Source: Pigoraptor vietnamica (Eukaryota > Opisthokonta > Filasterea). From it: 32,472 bases of DNA. The first letter of the stretch is position 1. Each line of letters opens with the position of its first letter. The notes under the pieces were generated by a model, which saw nothing but the letters and a program-made list of their open reading frames with translations, was not told the DNA's origin and made no database searches. Made by a program: the position numbers and the translations under genes. This document shows, one piece after another, positions 21 to 14,282 of the stretch. The stretch is taken from contig CALSCQ010001116.1 in NCBI GenBank assembly GCA_943704525.1, positions 1-32,472 on the forward strand, read 5' to 3'.

Positions 21-4066
<4,046 letters not shown>

Positions 4067-4271
4067 GACACAGGCATGCACACACAAATTATTATAAAAA
4101 GCTGAGTTGGCGCTGGGTAAGGTTGTGGGACTTTGGCCAACTTTCGCTTGGCTGAACGGCTCGACGGTGCGAATGCATAACCCCAACCCACTGTCTACGG
4201 AACTAGAAGTGTATTCTTAGTCGTTCGAAGCCGGGGAGGGCTTCAGACAACCATTGCGACCATCGCCGGGC
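4067..4271. other. convergent intergenic spacer
   Basis: 205 bases between the stop codons of the glycosyltransferase (+) and the receptor kinase (-). It must hold both 3' UTRs. An AT-rich stretch at about 4085-4100 could contribute to 3' end formation of the + gene. No canonical AATAAA was recognised. Confidence 0.6.
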
Positions 4272-7200
4272 TCACACGCTTGAAGTATCCGGCAGAACGA
4301 GATCAAGATATGTTCCGGGACGCTGCAAGGCAGCACGTGCGCCGGATGAAACAACCGACTCTTCTGGAACCGTAACAGTTGAGATAGCCACGGCCTCCAG
4401 CGCCAACCCTGTCGCACTTCGCTGCAGGGCAGGTGTGTTGTCTGCCGTCCGTGTGTGCCTGCTCGCGGCCGACAACGTGGTCGTCTGAGACACAAGGTCC
4501 GAAAACGATGGTCTCGCCCTTGGATCCGTGTGCCAACAGCAGCGGACGAGGTCGAATAGAGGCTCGGGGCAGAGTGGTGGGCGCTCAAGGCGAAGCCCGG
4601 CACGAAGGCGCGTCAACAGCTCGGAAATCGCAACGCCCTCTATGTAGGCACCAATATAGAATGAACCGTCCGTCAGCACAAAATGCATCCACGCCCGCCA
4701 ACTTAGACAAGACGAACGGAGAGCAGGAGCGACTCGACTGGCAAAAACAGAGAGACGGCAGCCACACAGTGGAGAAAAAATAAGAAAAAAAAAAACAAAA
4801 CACCTACCGTATGGGACACGGCCGAACGCAAAGCACTCCCACACGCAGACGCCGTATGACCACCTGCCGACACGGTCCAGACCTACTATAAGACTCAAAT
4901 TGCCGGTGACTGACTGAGTCGGTCAATGCAGCACACTACTCACACGTCCGTCTGCTCGCTGTACTTGCGCTCGGAAATGACCTCGGGTGCCATCCATCGC
5001 AGCGGAAGGCGCTCTTTCCCGCCACGCTTGCTTCTGTAGTACTCGGAAGACCCCTCGGTGTGACGCGAGAGACCAAAGTCGGCGATCTTCGCCAAATAAT
5101 CGCCGAAAGAATCCTGACCGATCAGTACGTTTCTCGCCGCCAGGTCGCGATGTCTTCGGCCGTTGAAATGGGAAGAAGAAAAAGTCGGGACGGGGTAATG
5201 ATGCAATGATAAGCAAAAAAAAAAAGGACTGGTCGAACGCATATCCAACACCGTCGAGTCACGGCACAACACGTCTAACGCACACAGCCGGTTACGGCCC
5301 GATGCGCACACTGCCGAATTCACAGACACTCACACAATCCCGACCGACGCGAGGTACTCCATGCCGCGTGCAATGTGAAGCGCGAAGCCGAGCAGCAAGA
5401 AATGCGTGCTCGTCGTCGTGCGGCGGTGCTGCGGAATCGCCTGAACGAACGAGCGCAGGCTTCCGTGCGTCGCAAACTCGAGCAGGATCAGCATAGGCTC
5501 CTTGTTCACCGCGACGCCCACGAGCGAGATGACGTTCGGGTGGACTTGAAGTCCGCTCATCACTTCGGCCTCGTCGATAAACGCGATTCGCTCCCGGTAC
5601 GTCGAACCGTCGCGCAGCAGCTTGGCGGCACAGAGACGCCGGAGACCCCACGCAGTGAGCAGGGCCTTCTGTACGATCCCGAACTCGCCCTGGCCGAGGG
5701 GACCCATCAAGTCAATGTCGTCATGGGACACTTCGAGGGAGGAGAGCTTGCTCTGCACGGCGGGCTTTCGAAAGTGGTCCGCGAGAAATCGTTCGTGTGA
5801 CATGCGGCTTGCGGCGCGCCTTTCGGCCCTCAGTCGACGCCACATGAACGCCGCCACGACCAAGAGGGCAGCGCAGGGTACAATGACGGCAGGAAGTACG
5901 ACCGATAGTCGGAGATCCGTGTCTGTAACTGGGACATTTCGAAAAGAGGTGATTAGCGTGTATAGGGGTACTGAATGTTGGCCTAACAGGCACACATATT
6001 TGTGAGTCCGGGGGTCTCTCGCAGGAAGCAACACAAAGCACACACACCCAAGAAAGCACGCACACACACAAACACACACCCGCACACGCACACGCACACG
6101 CACACGCCTACGCACACGCGCACACAACCAAACAAACGCACGCGCGCGCACACACACACACACACACGCACACAAGCACACACACACACGCCACACACAC
6201 ACACACGGACACACGCACGCACGCACGCACGCACGCACACACTCACAGAGACAGCGGCAAACTCACTGTTGTCAGAACTGCCGTTGCTGTCCGCATCGGC
6301 GTCTGCAGGTGCTGCGAAAGCGACCAGCACACTCATCGTGCCGGCACTGCCAGCACTGCGCACCGAGCCAACGCTATCCGAATCGCCGATTCCGCCAAGG
6401 ACAACGACGGCGGTCCGGTTGACCGGTGTGCAGGCGCGCACGCTATAGTATGTTTGCGGAAATTCGATGCAGGAGGCCGCGTACGCCGCTTGTCGAAATG
6501 CAACAGCGGCATGGCCCTGTACACCCGTTGGGAGCTTCCCGCTGAACTCGGCCCATGCATTCTGGTGCAAGTCGTAAACAAACGTGTCCGCCGACTTTTC
6601 CGAGACGCTGTCGCCGCCGATAAGGAGGATGCGACGCGAATCGAGCTGAACGGCCGCAAGACGGGCGAGGGCCGGGGGCCCCGTCCCCGCGGGCTTGAGA
6701 AGCGTCCACGTACGAGACACTGGGGAAAGAGGGTTAGACCCGGATTATGTCACAAGTATTTTACACACATTGCGAATGCAAAAGGAAGTTGCCATCTGAC
6801 GAGGCAAGATTACATACCGACTTCGAACTTCCAAAACTCGCTTGAAAGGACGGTATTAACTTCGCCGCCGTACACCCCGAAAGCAGTGTCGCTCATTTGT
6901 ACGGCCGCGTGGTCACGCCGAGGAACAGGCCCCGCGCCGGTCCATTCGAGTTGACTCCAACGCTAGCAATCGGCAGGTGTGCAAGTGAGCGAGTCGAAGA
7001 CGCATAACGAGTCCCCCCGCCATTCACCATCCCCATTTGACCGTGCGAAAGGCCCCGTACCCCACCACGCACTGATAAAGTGCGCACCCATTTTCCATGC
7101 GACACGCAGCGTGCGTCAAAAAAAATGCTATTAAGAAACTGAACAAATCCGAGGGGAGAACCCCACCTTAGTGGCAAAGTCGAAGCGCCAGAGGTCGCCA

Positions 7201-10200
7201 GTTTGAGTGTGCTCGTTCTCCCCGCCGAAAGCAAACAGAGCACCCATCACTACGACGCACGAGTGACGAGAGCGTGGTCTGGGATATATGTCGACTGGAA
7301 TGGTCAAAGTCCACGTGCCTGCACACCAACTCGTTGTGTCACCTCCAGTGCGTCGGCATCAAATTTTTTGTGCGCCACATCCACAAAGACAGGCGCAACG
7401 CACCCATCCGACTACCCATCCACACACACACGCGCGCGCGCGTACGCGTAGACAAATGCACGAATCGCAATATACGCGCACACAGCGGTTGGGAATGCGC
7501 GCGCACACAACATATTAACTGAAGACGCCGTACACATCATGCCACAAAACTCACAAACGCGCTCACAAGGAAATTGCTCGTTAACAAGAGATGGCCGCGG
7601 CCGTTGTCAAATAGGGCTTCTTACCGCGCACGATGTCGAATTCCCATAAATCGTTCGTAACAGTGCTGCCATGGGAAGTGGGCAGGCTGCCACCAAAGAC
7701 GTACATGCGGCCTTGGCTGTGGACGGCGCAATGGCGCTCCCGGGGCAGTGGCCAACTGCCATTGTTGTAAGCAACTTCCTTCCACTCAAGAAGATCTGCA
7801 AGGCGCAACAGCCGGAGGGGAAGGCCACCGCTAAGCCGATGCACAGCCGAATTCATAAAAATACATACAGTGATCGCACGCCCGAAGCATGCATATGGGA
7901 ACGAACGAATGCGAGACACTGACCACCATCAAGCTGCAAAGCACAAACCCGCATAAAAAGACACTTGCCGTAGTTTAGTAAATACGTCTTATTGGTGGTC
8001 GTATCGCCGACATGGCCGCCAAACACGATGATCGTATTATTCTCCGTTACGACAGTAGAGTGATACGAACACGCCGGCGGCACACTGTTGAAACTGGCGA
8101 CTTCACCCCAAGACCAGTCCCCTGTGGACTCGACATGGTGTCAGACCGAGAAGGGCACGTGCCACATGATGTCACTCCATGCAAAGGCACGGCGAGGGAG
8201 TTATCAACACGTTGTGATTAATGGTAGACGCGGGTTCCAACGGCACGACAATCACACTGAGCAGAGACACCAACCGGCAGTCGGTGACCGGGGCGCAAAG
8301 TCGCCCGTCGCCGAGTCAACGCCCGTGCGCAGCGAAACCTTGAGCTCTTCGAGCGCCCACGTTATCCAACCAACGGCACTCAACGTCACGACGACGGGGC
8401 ATTGCGATCCGGAGTCAGCGCGGACCGAGACAGTCCGCAAATCTTGCATGCGCTCGCACGACTGGGTTTCATAATGGCTTTAAAAGAAGAAGGAGAAGAA
8501 GAAGAAAAAAGAGCTCATTGCATCGAAGAATATTACGACAGCCAATTACAAGCGAAGAGTATCGGAAAAACGCACCTGAAACGACGCATTGGCGCATGCG
8601 GCAAATGCAATTCCGTCATTGCTCGCATCGAGCGCAAAATTGCCGCCTGCGAACGTGCCGTTGAAACGGCGCTCGAGCGCAAGGCCAATGGCAAGCCCAA
8701 TTCGCTTAACAGCGGAGCCAAGCAGCCTGTCGGCGTAGGCAGAACCGGCGAAGGTGGTCTGGCTTTCGTCGCGGTCAACGCCTATAACGAAAACGCCACG
8801 TGACGCAGCGTAGAGAATCGCCGAGGAACCCGCCCCTCCCGCACAACCGAAGATGACGTCCGCGCCGCTGTCGATGAAATCTGAGCTCGCATTGGATGAA
8901 ATGGCGAGTCAGGAGTAGCGGGCGGAACAGAAGCAAGTGGTATTGCAGCACGTCATAAACAGGCGGTCCCCGACAAAGGCGAAAGAAGAGAGGACAAAAA
9001 TACACGCACATCAGAGGGAACAAGACAAACCGTGCTTACCCGCTGCCATCGACATTGAAAGAGTTGCGTCGTCAAATTTGGGAAGGTAACCGGCACGCAC
9101 TTTGCAGTCCTTACAGACGACATTGACGCCCTTCGCGAAGCCGTTGCGAAAACGCCGCACTGGCTCTAACGGGACGCCCGCAATTATGCCCACAACGCGC
9201 GACTGCAGAGCGCAGGGCAATGTTGTCACAGACGGAGGGGCCGGCCACACAAGAAAGAAACTACAGCACTCGGACCCTCCCGCACATTGAGTTCACGCAC
9301 GACGACGGCGCTCGTTAGAAAATTAAGAAGATTGAAAACTTCGCCCCGGAGTCAGCATACCTTCGTCACGACACCTGCTCCGTGCCAGCGCAGAACTTAC
9401 ATTTAGCTATAGTCAAGGATGGGCAGTTGAAGGGGAAAGCAGCGACTGATTGAGGCAATACAGCAGAAACTCCGATCCAAAACTCGGCGCAAAACCCACC
9501 CGCAACGAGGCCAGCCATGTAGCCTGCCTGGTCCTCGGCGAACACAGCCCCTTGGAGGTTGCCAGAGTGCGCGTCGGTAATTGCGCTATCGATGAGGGTG
9601 AATGCAACGTTTTGATGCATGGCCGCGGCACTCTGGAGCAAGGGCTCATACTGGGCGCCCATCGCGATGACGTGGACGACTGTGATGGGGCTCCTTTGTA
9701 CGGCAGCCGCGATCGTTAGCAAAATAAGAGTGAACATGGCTTCTAAACCGCGCGGAGAGGGTCATCCCAAAGGGCGCGAACCCGCGCATCGGAGTGATAG
9801 GAACGGTGGCACCGAACACTTTCCCGCACACAATTGACAATCATGTCAGCACAGAGACACAAACAGCGCCGGCAACGCACCGCACGCACGCACACACTCA
9901 CTTTGCGATTCGGTCGCTCAAGACATTCCCTTTGTCCGTGGTCGGAATTGTCGTGTCGAGGGTGCATCGTTCCTCCCCAAAGAAAGCCCTCGTCGTATTT
10001 CTGCAGCCTTCCCATATGAGGGCAGCGAATTCGTTTGGCGTTCCCTCTGTGTGCCGGCAACAACAACAGTCCAAGGACGGTGCAGGAAACGCGCAGGTTA
10101 GCAACGCCGGAGGGACGTGTGCGGAACGAGTACAACAGCTGCTAATAGAAAATCATGGCGCATTCACAGTATATGCGTCTGCGCGCGGCGCACATGCACA

Positions 10201-10227
10201 ATGGACCCGCCAGCACAGCGAAGCAGA

Positions 10228-10293
<66 letters not shown>

Positions 10294-10698
10294 ACCGACA
10301 GAGACTCGCACGCCTGCTCGTAGGGACACGAAAGAAACGCCAACTCAAGACGCACACAGCGTTCAATCTCGGAACATTGACAGGCGACGAAAAATAATAC
10401 CGCGATTTGACAACATAGCTCATCAAACCACTAAGACCCCACCCGAAGCGACGATATTGCCCTCTGCAAGCACAAGCACCGTGACGTTGGCGCTCGGCGG
10501 GATCGCGGCGGACAGAGACCACGCCTTCCGGAGCCGCGCGTGTGACAACGGCGCTTGGGCAGCATCGCGCTCACGAGCCGGCGAACTTCGGAGATCGCCG
10601 GCAGAGCTTGCATCAATCGTGTTGGCATTTGTGTGTGCGAGTAAATGGCACGCAAGCACGAAGAAGGAGGCGATGCGAACAACAGCTAGCGCCGTCAT
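4272..10698 (-). CDS. Receptor tyrosine kinase with BMP-type ligand-binding domain and Kelch repeats
   Basis: Predicted single-pass receptor that would phosphorylate proteins on tyrosine. Sixteen exons in coding order: 10698-10443, 10046-9902, 9693-9500, 9374-9361, 9202-9040, 8880-8576, 8461-8275, 8121-7969, 7795-7625, 7318-7167, 6962-6818, 6719-6267, 5928-5334, 5153-4944, 4863-4808, 4639-4272. They total 3567 nt (1188 aa), in phase throughout. Residues 1-26 form a signal peptide. About 70-360 is a Bmp/PnrA-type periplasmic-binding domain ([53 protein letters not shown]). About 420-760 has five or six Kelch motifs. A transmembrane helix lies at about 787-809. The kinase spans about 850-1120: GQGEFG, AAK lysine near 882, HRDLAARN near 979-986, DFG near 1003, paired Tyr in the activation loop, RWMAPE and [12 protein letters not shown]. 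All catalytic residues are present. The tail is about 70 aa. The kinase class is certain; the ligand is unknown. Confidence 0.9.
6053..6245 (-). repeat. CA-rich low-complexity tract (GT on sense strand)
   Basis: Imperfect CA/CG/CACG-rich repeat in intron 12 (5929-6266) of the receptor kinase, including a GCAC-type tetranucleotide run near 6213-6238. It starts close to the GTGAGT donor at 6266. Confidence 0.9.
7796..7968 (-). other. GC-AG intron (intron 8) of the receptor kinase
   Basis: The donor reads G|GCAAGT and the acceptor CTTGCAG. Phase 1 on both sides creates [12 protein letters not shown] across a Kelch blade. The nearest GT (GTGTCT at 7964) would leave phase 2, which the next exon cannot accept. 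Confidence 0.75.
9361..9374 (-). other. 14-nt microexon (exon 4) of the receptor kinase
   Basis: This exon lies between acceptor GGAGCAG and donor GTATGC. It enters in phase 1 and leaves in phase 0, supplying Gly-Val-Val-Thr-Lys. That links AGYMAGLVA to SRVVGIIAG, giving the spacing usual for BMP family proteins. Without it the flanking exons are out of phase. Confidence 0.85.
10229..10289 (-). repeat. (CA)n microsatellite, about 30 units
   Basis: Perfect AC repeat in intron 1 (10047-10442) of the receptor kinase. It reads GT on that gene's sense strand. Confidence 0.97.
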
Positions 10699-10919: not shown

Positions 10920-12662
10920 TTATTCGAGTAGTTTTCGCACACGCGACAGTGGCTCTCTGTTGGCAATAGGACAGCCCTTCACGCTCAGCACGCACACACG
11001 CTCGAGATGAGAAACGTCAGTCACACGCCGACAGCCATCCAGAATGAGAGTGTGGACGCCGCCAAGCATGGAGACATCCGACACCGGCGTGTGCGCTAAG
11101 TCGAGGTGGTAGACGCCGCCGAGCTGCGACACATCCTCCACTCTACAAAGTGCGAGGCTCAGGGTGTGCACCCGACCGAGCGCGGATACGTCGACGTCCG
11201 TTACCGCACAGCGGCTAAGATTCAAGTTGCGAACGGACCCGAGCTTCGAGAAGTCAGAAATGGCCTCACAGTAAGAGAGGTTGAGGGCAGACAAGTTGCC
11301 GAGCGCGGAAACGTCCTTTACGGGCGTGTTGTGGAGAGTGAGTGTGTGGACGTGCCAGAGCGCGCTGACATCTAAAACATTCGCGGACGAGAGATCGAGC
11401 GTGTGACAGTTACGCAGGGCGGCAAGGCCTTGGACGACAGTGCCCGACCGGCGGCCCCCAAACTGAAGACGAAGCGTATGTACGCGGCCGAATGTTGAGA
11501 CGTCCGACACTCTAGTAAACGACAGGTCGAGCGTATGCACCGAGCCCAGCGCACGACACACCTCGTCCGTCCACTCGAAGCACGATTGCGAGAGGTCGAC
11601 CTCGTGCACGCCATTGAGCGACGCAAGGCCGACCAGATCGTGCATTTCGGTCAGTCGGAGCGTGTGGACGCGACCGAGTGCCGAAACGTCGAGATCCTCA
11701 CACATAGAGAGCTCGAGCGTGTGGGCGGCGCCGAGCATGGACACGTCCTTCACTTGGCCACACTCGCGGAGGATGAGTGTTCTGACGCGACCGGCGGCCG
11801 ATACGTCGACGAGGCTACTGGACTCTGAAAGGTCGAGAAAGCGGAGGCACCCCAGCTCGGGCGGGATCGACGTCAGCTGGGAATTGTGCCACGTGAACGA
11901 GCGGAGGTATGTCGACGGCGGCAGCGCAACGACAGACCTGGCGTAGAGGACAACTTCGCGCGCGTTCTCCAGCACGCGGAGATCGGCGTCATGCACGCCC
12001 CCAACGGTAACACAGTGCGCGAGTCGCAATGCCGAGATGCCGCCATACCTATTCCGGGGCGTGAGGCGAACGTTTACGCGCCGCACACCTTCGAGGGAAG
12101 AAAGGTCGGGCGTCTCCGTACCGTAGAGATAAACCGACTCGGCCTTGCGGAAGGGAGGCAGCGCGCCCTTGTACCAGCCGAGCGTGAGGTCGCGAACGTC
12201 AGCCAAGTGTGCGAGGGCATCCGCCAGTGGACATTGGACGTTCCAAAAAGACATGGTCACAGTGTGGACGCCCCGAAGTGGGCTCAAGTCGGTCGCCCCG
12301 CACGTGTCTTGTTCAAATTGTTCTGGTCTCATGAAGATGGCCGAGTGGACGCCCGCGAAAGGAGTGAGGTCGGTGAGCTCCTTCCACCCGTAGAGAACGA
12401 GGCGGTCGACGGGAATGAAGCTCTTGACCTCCTCGCGAAACGCGCCGTCCTCGACGAACTTGCGGTTGTAGAGTGGCCACAGGTGGTAGAGACGCTCGCG
12501 GCGGAGGACGCGAAAGAGGCGCCCGCACGTTTTGGCCAGCGCGGCCGTGTCTATGGTCGAGAGGTAGGGCAGAATGTGGACGACGATCGTCTCCGCGGGG
12601 AGCGAGTCGAGGTTGGGTGCGTCATTCCCGCCGGCGTGAACGCTGACGGCGGTGGACTGCAT
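10920..12662 (-). CDS. F-box-like leucine-rich repeat protein, intronless
   Basis: A single uninterrupted 580-aa reading frame. ATG 12662 was chosen because an F-box-like segment follows about 20 residues later (LDSLPAETIVVHILPYL, then KTCGRLFRVL). The upstream in-frame extension is only the mirror of the P450 gene. The rest is irregular LRRs of about 21-24 residues with the recurring core GRVHTLRL...VSDVSALG, at least 15 copies, running to the C-terminus. The likely role is substrate recognition in an SCF-type ubiquitin ligase, inferred only from F-box plus LRR. Nothing shows the target. No signal peptide or membrane segment is seen. It is the only complete gene here without introns. Its stop lies 222 bases upstream of the receptor kinase start on the same strand. 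Confidence 0.85.
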   Translation of the reverse strand: MQSTAVSVHAGGNDAPNLDSLPAETIVVHILPYLSTIDTAALAKTCGRLFRVLRRERLYHLWPLYNRKFVEDGAFREEVKSFIPVDRLVLYGWKELTDLTPFAGVHSAIFMRPEQFEQDTCGATDLSPLRGVHTVTMSFWNVQCPLADALAHLADVRDLTLGWYKGALPPFRKAESVYLYGTETPDLSSLEGVRRVNVRLTPRNRYGGISALRLAHCVTVGGVHDADLRVLENAREVVLYARSVVALPPSTYLRSFTWHNSQLTSIPPELGCLRFLDLSESSSLVDVSAAGRVRTLILRECGQVKDVSMLGAAHTLELSMCEDLDVSALGRVHTLRLTEMHDLVGLASLNGVHEVDLSQSCFEWTDEVCRALGSVHTLDLSFTRVSDVSTFGRVHTLRLQFGGRRSGTVVQGLAALRNCHTLDLSSANVLDVSALWHVHTLTLHNTPVKDVSALGNLSALNLSYCEAISDFSKLGSVRNLNLSRCAVTDVDVSALGRVHTLSLALCRVEDVSQLGGVYHLDLAHTPVSDVSMLGGVHTLILDGCRRVTDVSHLERVCVLSVKGCPIANREPLSRVRKLLE

Positions 12663-12972
12663 CGCGTATTCTGTCAGGAAGGAGAAAGTAAAAGCATGAG
12701 TATTAGGACTGCCTTCCCTCCAAACAACGCCACCCAAACTCGCCTCTCGAGAAAAAAGAAGCGAGAGAGAGAAAAGTGGGTAGGTTTGATGTTCGATTGG
12801 GAAAAGTTTGAACGTCATGAAGTGCAGTTGTTGAATAACGGTGTTTTTCAGTGGATCCGGACAGCCCAGACACACCAGCCGAGAACGGCCCCTCGAACTC
12901 TTCAGTTGTTCCTGCACTTCGTCGCACGCACTTTCGCAAAGTGTGGCATGCAGGGAGCGCTTCTCTATTTGA
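12663..12972. promoter_or_regulatory. divergent promoter region, F-box/LRR (-) and P450 (+)
   Basis: 310 bases separate two divergently oriented start codons, so both 5' UTRs and promoters must fit here. A purine-rich patch (GAAAAAAGAAGCGAGAGAGA) lies at 12750-12769. No TATA box, TCACGTGA or TGTAAC element was found, unlike the other two divergent regions. Confidence 0.5.
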
Positions 12973-14282
12973 ATGGACGGCGGGCAAGGGTCGCTGCTGC
13001 GTGCGGTGGGCGCGGCGGTGGCTGTTGTCATCATCACTGCGGTGTGCTGGGTGCGATGGAGGACGCGTCGCACGCACGTGCGCGAGACGGCGCAGAGGCG
13101 AGTGGACGGAGAAAGAGGCCAGCAAGGAAAGGGAGGGGGAGTGAGTGCTGTGAACGAACTCGCGGATTCGATCGAGCGCGTGGATGGCGCAGTGTGCATC
13201 ACGTCGCTTCGTGGCATTACGCTCGCACTACGCGACAAGGCGCTTTCGGCGAATGCAATTGGCGGCATTTTCGGCCGTTTGAGCGACGTCGAGAGAGGGT
13301 CGTTTGCGCACATGGAGGGTGTGCTGAGGGCGCAGTTGCTGTCGCTGGAAGGGGCGCGGCACACGCGCGTGAGGCGGGTGATCGCGAGGCACTTTCGACA
13401 GAGCGAGTGGGTGGAAGAAGGGGATGCGCTCTTGTGCGCGAGTTGTCACGCGCGACTGTGTCTTTTTGACTTGACTCTCACGCGGCGCCTGCCTCGCCCT
13501 TACAACTCACTCTCCTGCATGCCTCTACTCACTCCATCTCAGGTGTGTTCGTCGCACTCCCCTGGTCGAGATGCATGCGAATCGCGCTGTGGACGCACTT
13601 CGCAGCGATATGGAATCCCTTGGCAGTGCCGATCTCGTCCCTATTGCGGCACAGTTCTCCCTCAGTGTGCGTTGAACGTGACTGCGCGCACACTCCGACT
13701 GTCACTTATAAGGGGGGGCCATCAAGGCTCTCTCTCCGTATATCCCCCTTCGATTGTGAGCCAACGCCACGCTGCACACGCCGCTGTCGTCGCACAACAC
13801 TCCTCTAGTTCGTCCCCCTTCTCCTTCTCACCGCTAAGCGCCTCTCTTTGCTCGCCGTAGGTCATCCTCGGCATGCTCGGAATCGACGCGTCGCACGGCG
13901 CTCTTATGCTGTCGTGCACGCGTGCCATCGAGGACGTCTTTGGCCCGCACGACGACGAGGGCCTTTTGCTTGCATGCGCCCGCGCGGACTCGTTCCTCCG
14001 CGAATGTGAGGCTGTCGTGTTGCAGCGCATGGGTGTGGAGCGTGAGGGATGGAGTACTGAAGCTCCCGAGCTCACCGGCGGTGGGCACGAGAGAGTGGGG
14101 GATAGTGCGGACGATCGGGAAAGCGACGAAGAAGCCGACGGCAGCGTGTCATCCGATGGTGCAATTCTCGACGATTTTGCGCGACTCGTGCGAGAAGGAG
14201 TATTGACGACGACGGAGGTGCGTACACGTACATTGCGGTTTGTGGGTGGCCGAGGCAGTTATCCTCTCGAAGACTTTACTCG

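Follow-up and report, generated by a model that had tools for sequence, protein, structure and literature searches.

The 32,472-nucleotide contig CALSCQ010001116.1 of the filasterean Pigoraptor vietnamica (assembly GCA_943704525.1), which at its full length is referred to here as the window, carries a gene for a predicted receptor tyrosine kinase (RTK) that joins a bacterial-type Bmp/PnrA binding domain and a Kelch β-propeller to a single membrane helix and a kinase. We put at roughly 0.6 the probability that this protein works as a single-pass RTK tipped by a PnrA/Bmp flytrap, with Kelch as the stalk or docking face, sensing a small planar metabolite; the proposal is drawn from the sequence.

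Architecture of the receptor

The gene was rebuilt by hand from both strands, exons being joined only where splice signals and reading phase agreed. Its coding region (10698..4272, minus strand) comprises 16 exons with a coding sequence of 3567 nt for 1188 residues, and the sole stop is the terminal TGA (Table 1). All 15 junctions are phase-consistent, which reproduces the single 16-exon model of a preliminary description of this DNA; 14 introns are of the GT-AG type, and the one following exon 8 is GC-AG. A spliced aligner recovered every exon with the window protein as its guide, a result that tests the aligner more than the gene model. Two other solutions were rejected. For exon 3, a donor near 9400 was dropped in favour of a microexon, which is supported by a paralogous gene on contig C1015 and fits the unbroken reading of contig C1143. 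Similarly, an in-frame TAG at 6965-6963 does not break a Kelch blade; it is the exon 11 acceptor, and C1015 joins the same residues.

The spliced protein was searched with Pfam at cut-offs of 24.1 bits (PF02608), 50 bits (PF24681) and 23.1 bits (PF07714). According to hydropathy, it has only one N-terminal hydrophobic stretch, the putative signal peptide, and one further helix, and a pattern test of the N-terminus revealed no lipobox. The joined exons match the Bmp family PF02608 with 112.8 bits, and three unspliced stretches exceed the cut-off on their own (29.6, 27.9 and 24.7 bits). The fold probably begins near residue 70, in exon 1, and its matches in the PDB include the lipoprotein 6yab (3.1e-24) and TmpC/PnrA 2fqw (2.7e-19). 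It is followed by repeated blades with the GG and W positions of Kelch motifs, about six by eye and roughly one per exon in exons 8-11; PF24681 scores 230.7 bits with its best stretch at residues 425-613, and the best stretch of PF24981 covers residues 557-702. Ten N-glycosylation sequons lie in the predicted outer part. The kinase domain (250.7 bits) retains the glycine loop, the catalytic lysine and the HRD, DFG and MAPE (APE) motifs, and the best 60 of its 821 solved-structure matches are EGFR, FGFR, EphB4 and Tie2. With its predicted signal peptide, one helix and intracellular tyrosine kinase, the protein is by architecture an RTK. Each of the parts named in the preliminary description (signal peptide, BMP-type domain, Kelch motifs, one transmembrane helix and intact tyrosine kinase) was thus found again. 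The Pfam search of the protein returned no PF00211 cyclase domain, and the PF01094 (ANF_receptor) flytrap is absent among its 13 Pfam families at E up to 0.001.

The putative ligand pocket

In Borrelia BmpA, Phe27 and Phe176 are described as stacking the base, with Asp98, Asp225 and Lys242 near the ribose, and mutation of either Phe abolishes measurable binding (PMC13325309). The window protein has Phe92, Phe246, Asp169, Asp293 and Lys316 as counterparts, and Phe221 and Val292 match further residues named for BmpA; this correspondence was established by motifs, spacing and alignment to S. pneumoniae PnrA and TmpC, not to the BmpA sequence itself. Three of the spacings between residue pairs are nearly equal in the window protein and BmpA (25 vs 25, 52 vs 53 and 47 vs 49).

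Among 15 eukaryotic Bmp rows, Phe246, Asp293 and Lys316 are present in all, Phe221 and Val292 in 14 each and Asp169 in 13. At the Phe92 position, 13 rows have a residue, Phe in 12 and Tyr in one; C1095 and C712 are empty there owing to their uncertain 5′ exons. Asp169 is absent from P0002 (a protein from an ENA contig) and C533, and Phe221 in C507, which is also the row with Tyr for Phe92. Invariant columns make up three of the six gapless pocket columns, compared with 21 of 256 overall (hypergeometric P 0.008, shared descent ignored); for the five columns without Asp169, the same test gives P 0.004. Since the pocket residues of BmpA are kept, a nucleoside-like ligand appears plausible.

Comparison with known receptors

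Venus kinase receptors (VKRs) of invertebrates combine a PF01094-related flytrap with a kinase related to that of the insulin receptor (PMC3703292), and are activated by amino acids (PMC3703292; PMC2680970). The window protein resembles them, as well as the VKR-like choanoflagellate RTKS and UTK12, in having a periplasmic-binding fold outside, one helix and a tyrosine kinase inside. In contrast to VKRs, its ectodomain belongs to PF02608 and Kelch blades separate the flytrap from the membrane. The kinases may differ as well, that of VKRs being related to the insulin receptor and that of the window having the EGFR, FGFR, EphB4 and Tie2 matches given above, a comparison made on structure matches and not on a kinase tree. 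The window receptor would work like a VKR, but is not one, as it lacks the defining PF01094 flytrap. The preliminary description knew no such architecture from animal receptors; this is too broad, because VKRs do have a periplasmic-binding ectodomain (PMC3703292), and holds only in so far as theirs is of the PF01094 and not the PF02608 type.

With the bacterial lipoproteins PnrA, TmpC and BmpA, the window protein shares the PF02608 fold and the contact residues. Whereas these are lipid-anchored transporter partners, the window domain lacks the lipobox pattern and belongs to a receptor kinase. There is a precedent for a Bmp-type ligand domain on a eukaryotic receptor in the dictyostelid Grl family 3 G-protein-coupled receptors (GPCRs): a large ectodomain is present in most Grl receptors of amoebozoans and is BMP-like in clades 2-7, and dictyostelid GrlG and GrlL (fAR1) bind folate (PMC10445921). 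Their output, however, is a seven-helix domain and not a tyrosine kinase. Holozoan tyrosine kinases are documented to have shuffled their ectodomains (PMC8662651), and the main text of that study mentions neither kelch nor Bmp. Among the papers listed in our literature searches, none showed a tyrosine kinase joined to Bmp and Kelch or the use of that ectodomain in TKL and cyclase receptors as well. As VKRs and Bmp-ectodomain GPCRs are already known, the kind of receptor is not new; what appears to be new is this combination of domains.

Paralogues and kinase relatives

The gene on C1015 (locus L021) has the same layout as the window gene. Each of the 15 window introns has a counterpart there within 2 residues and in the same phase, in a model obtained from an aligner guided by the window protein, which contains two extra introns, located near its uncertain 5′ end and at an interruption of the kinase. 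Over 1158 aligned codons, the two genes differ at 30.5, 22.6 and 55.7% of first, second and third codon positions. The third position differs most in every exon except the 4-codon microexon, where it is level with the first (15 of 16 exons).

A third kinase of this group lies on C788 (L029). In the transmembrane and kinase part, it is 68.9% identical to the window protein and 70.4% to C1015, the latter two being 69.9% identical to each other. Open frames upstream of the C788 kinase match Laminin_G_3 and Cadherin_4 and likely belong to the same gene. Module exchange thus seems to run the other way as well, placing nearly the same kinase under a different ectodomain. Tails related to that of the window protein occur in C1015 (GTYIDL...SNV) and C788 (GTYLDL...SHV). 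We also observed that the window (4275-4284), L021 and L029 kinases all terminate in S-x-V (SSV, SNV and SHV), endings that we take to resemble class I PDZ-binding tails. A more distant tyrosine kinase, 46% identical to that of the window, is encoded on C327 (L030, 431-4564) by a 1378-codon open frame, together with a helix and a repetitive ectodomain that looks like a β-helix by eye.

Bmp receptors in the genome and in other species

Profile searches of the assembly (32.5 Mb, 1395 contigs) gave 28 PF02608 matches on 18 contigs. On 11 of these, Bmp is followed on its own strand by a match to a Kelch profile, and a spliced model of C54 raises the number to 12: C446 (the window), C1015, C126, C1143, C1349, C422, C1095, C1200, C507, C54, C542 and C712. 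No Kelch was seen behind Bmp on C555, C1193, C325, C533, C1008 and C619, of which C533 and C619 end soon after Bmp. The output could be read in seven of the 12. It is a tyrosine kinase in two (C446 and C1015) and a TKL-type kinase in five (C1349, C422, C1095, C542 and C712), which resemble the window gene in that Bmp and Kelch precede a kinase and differ in its type. The preliminary description had not noted this recurrence of the ectodomain with other outputs. The TKL assignment is based on motifs (HRDLK or HRDMK in four, HLDIK in C712) and PDB matches of C1095 (CTR1, MLK), and not on a tree; the other four have Pfam kinase matches. Of the remaining five loci, three (C126, C1143 and C54) stop at or close to the end of their contig, the C1200 stretch contains 4000 N, and no kinase was found within the part of C507 examined.

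Two Bmp genes without Kelch, on C325 and C1008, continue into a pseudokinase-like part and a guanylate cyclase; a complete Bmp-Kelch cyclase could not be read in this genome. A second, Kelch-less class of Bmp receptors is represented by L012 and L013 (C1193), L010 (C555), L020 (C325) and L024 (C1008), which continue into TKL-like kinase pieces or cyclases, some with a short EGF-like cysteine stretch by eye. Separately, the genome contains 58 PF01094 matches; C91, C121, C227, C650 and C803 also bear receptor-cyclase-like parts. A Bmp-GPCR as in Dictyostelium was considered and discarded: among the 18 7tm_3 matches listed, none lies on the 18 Bmp contigs.

In a database of 5.8 billion proteins, Bmp and Kelch occurred together in only two of the proteins listed (21 and 9 in the two lists), P0001 from Opistho-2, presumably Pigoraptor chileana, and P0002; as only the 8000 candidates sharing most words were scored per search, the absence of others is weak evidence. 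P0001 consists of Bmp, Kelch, a transmembrane helix, a kinase-like domain and a guanylate cyclase domain, and is 32% identical to the window protein over 1093 aligned columns, the kinase-like part included. It thus shares the Bmp-Kelch ectodomain and helix and differs by its pseudokinase, with HGH for HRD and DYG for DFG, and its cyclase. P0002 has Bmp, Kelch, a helix by eye and a cyclase match. The start of this cyclase reads FTDIESSTALWA and, as we take it, resembles kinetoplastid receptor cyclases. The C126 ectodomain is 63-78% identical to P0001 across six matched pieces; this genome therefore probably holds the same cyclase receptor, cut by the contig end. The two hosts are closely matched in HSP90 (439 residues used), where Opistho-2 is 94% identical and the other 119 proteins listed reach at most 83% (Capsaspora 81%); Pigoraptor vietnamica itself is Opistho-1 (PMC7147346). 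An Acanthamoeba origin was discarded on the strength of this HSP90 comparison.

A midpoint-rooted tree of 14 ectodomains, with P0002 and C507 on long branches, pairs the window with C1015 (98/99) and P0001 with C126 (100/100). The five TKL rows form a group with four rows of unread output (87/98, below the starred level). The simplest reading of this tree would be a few output exchanges rather than many.

Alternative explanations

Several points weigh against a nucleoside-sensing, functional RTK. As the 15 Bmp rows are related, the conservation of their columns stems in part from common descent. Two spacings differ between the window protein and BmpA (77 vs 71 and 23 vs 17), the position of BmpA Asn28 is occupied by Ala93, and the first strand of the domain is hard to align, the pocket comparison leaving out the positions of BmpA Asp19 and Asp24. 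The C1015 frame is interrupted near L021 6411-6597 and without DFG, for which a decaying copy, a pseudokinase and an assembly error are candidates, and the C788 kinase has one in-frame stop in its C-lobe; members of the group may therefore decay, although that of the window appears intact. Some Grl receptors of dictyostelids, moreover, take folate or other ligands, so that a nucleoside is not the sole option. Of the purine-nucleoside sensing tentatively proposed in the preliminary description, compatibility of the pocket with a nucleoside is supported; the choice of a purine is less certain, in view of Ala93 and of the differing nucleosides taken by bacterial relatives of BmpA (PMC13325309). 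Bmp and Kelch might instead form a protein- or glycan-binding surface for adhesion or prey-surface recognition, the pocket being a structural relic. Kelch propellers usually bind proteins, and both the loss of the Asn28 position and the Laminin_G_3 and Cadherin_4 frames upstream of the related C788 kinase would fit such a role. We nevertheless regard it as unlikely: the stacking and ribose-contacting residues stand at some of the most strongly conserved positions in the domain, and a relic would not require such conservation. A folate- or pterin-like ligand from bacteria or prey, as for GrlL/fAR1 and GrlG, seems somewhat less likely again. Pterins are planar, as purines are, Grl clades 2-7 are BMP-like (PMC10445921) and Pigoraptor clones were fed on a bodonid (PMC7147346); on the other hand, the available text of PMC10445921 leaves the membership of GrlL in a BMP clade unstated, and Asp293 and Lys316 suit a ribose (PMC13325309), which folate lacks.

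The gene model itself could be at fault. The intron between exons 12 and 13 measures 338 nt and is rich in TG repeats, and exon 12 stays open beyond its donor, as might be expected if a secreted Bmp-Kelch protein (exons 1-12) were followed by a neighbouring gene for a membrane kinase (exons 13-16). This is very improbable, since the corresponding splice is found in C1015 and the Opistho-2 ectodomain, helix and kinase-like domain form one protein record. These comparisons support the assignment of exons 1-16 to one gene, as originally described. Equally hard to credit, if not more so, is a pseudogene or an assembly chimera: the frame interruptions in C1015 and C788 and the division of the assembly into 1395 contigs would be in keeping with it, but the window frame is open, its kinase motifs are intact and the third-position excess extends to 15 of 16 exons.

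Features of the window

Next to the receptor gene, the window contains a transferase-like open frame, a predicted tRNA and a long open frame directly upstream (Table 1). The latter, in an edited reading, has an F-box-like start, with a match below the cut-off, and many short leucine-rich repeats.

Table 1. Features of the receptor gene and its neighbours in the window
Feature	Position	Strand	Basis or remark
Exons 1-4	10698-10443, 10046-9902, 9693-9500, 9374-9361	minus	
Exons 5-8	9202-9040, 8880-8576, 8461-8275, 8121-7969	minus	
Exons 9-12	7795-7625, 7318-7167, 6962-6818, 6719-6267	minus	
Exons 13-16	5928-5334, 5153-4944, 4863-4808, 4639-4272	minus	
Microexon (exon 4, 14 nt), within Bmp domain	9361..9374	minus	same-length exon in C1015 (L021 2220-2233)
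Signal peptide, ~aa 1-25	10624..10698	minus	hydropathy
Bmp/PnrA-type binding domain, Pfam span aa 142-351, exons 3-6	8600..9671	minus	PF02608, 112.8 bits
Kelch β-propeller, ~aa 425-758	6331..8113	minus	PF24681 and PF24981; end part and blade count by eye
Single transmembrane helix, ~aa 786-808	5843..5911	minus	hydropathy
Tyrosine kinase domain, aa 853-1118	4485..5710	minus	PF07714, 250.7 bits
C-terminal tail with GTYLDL and final TSSV	4275..4484	minus	alike in C1015 and C788
Open frame, chondroitin N-acetylgalactosaminyltransferase match	2486-3946	plus	PF05679, 50 bits
tRNA-Glu (TTC), predicted, just beyond the 3′ end of the receptor gene	4107-4190	plus	
Long open frame directly upstream of the receptor gene	10920-13445	minus	edited reading

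Discussion

For the metabolite-sensing RTK that we favour, we infer a ligand class, a mode of dimerization, a function of the tail and a cellular use as follows. The ligand would be a planar metabolite of small size, with a nucleoside or nucleoside-like compound as the most probable candidate, clamped by Phe92 and Phe246, its sugar or polar edge being held by Asp169, Asp293 and Lys316. Its binding would close the Bmp lobes, and the change may pass via the propeller beneath them and the helix to alter how a receptor dimer is packed. Trans-phosphorylation could then follow in the kinase loop that carries the YY pair, and SH2 proteins might be recruited by phosphotyrosines, for instance in the GTYLDL tail. 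The cell may use such a receptor for sensing prey or dissolved nutrients.

A bolder and less probable proposal is that Bmp-Kelch is a portable sensor of nucleoside-like metabolites in filastereans, feeding tyrosine kinase, TKL and cyclic-nucleotide outputs in parallel. If true, the window RTK would be gated directly by a nucleoside, and, in a close relative of animals, a single ligand class would be converted into second signals of three kinds. One ectodomain type serving several outputs is the point of most interest. RTKs are a hallmark of animals, and how they acquired their outer parts is an open question. Here, one ectodomain could be traced over several outputs in a unicellular relative of animals, with a pocket that would predict the class of ligand, so that binding assays may make it possible to test how modules were swapped and which ligands such receptors first recognized.

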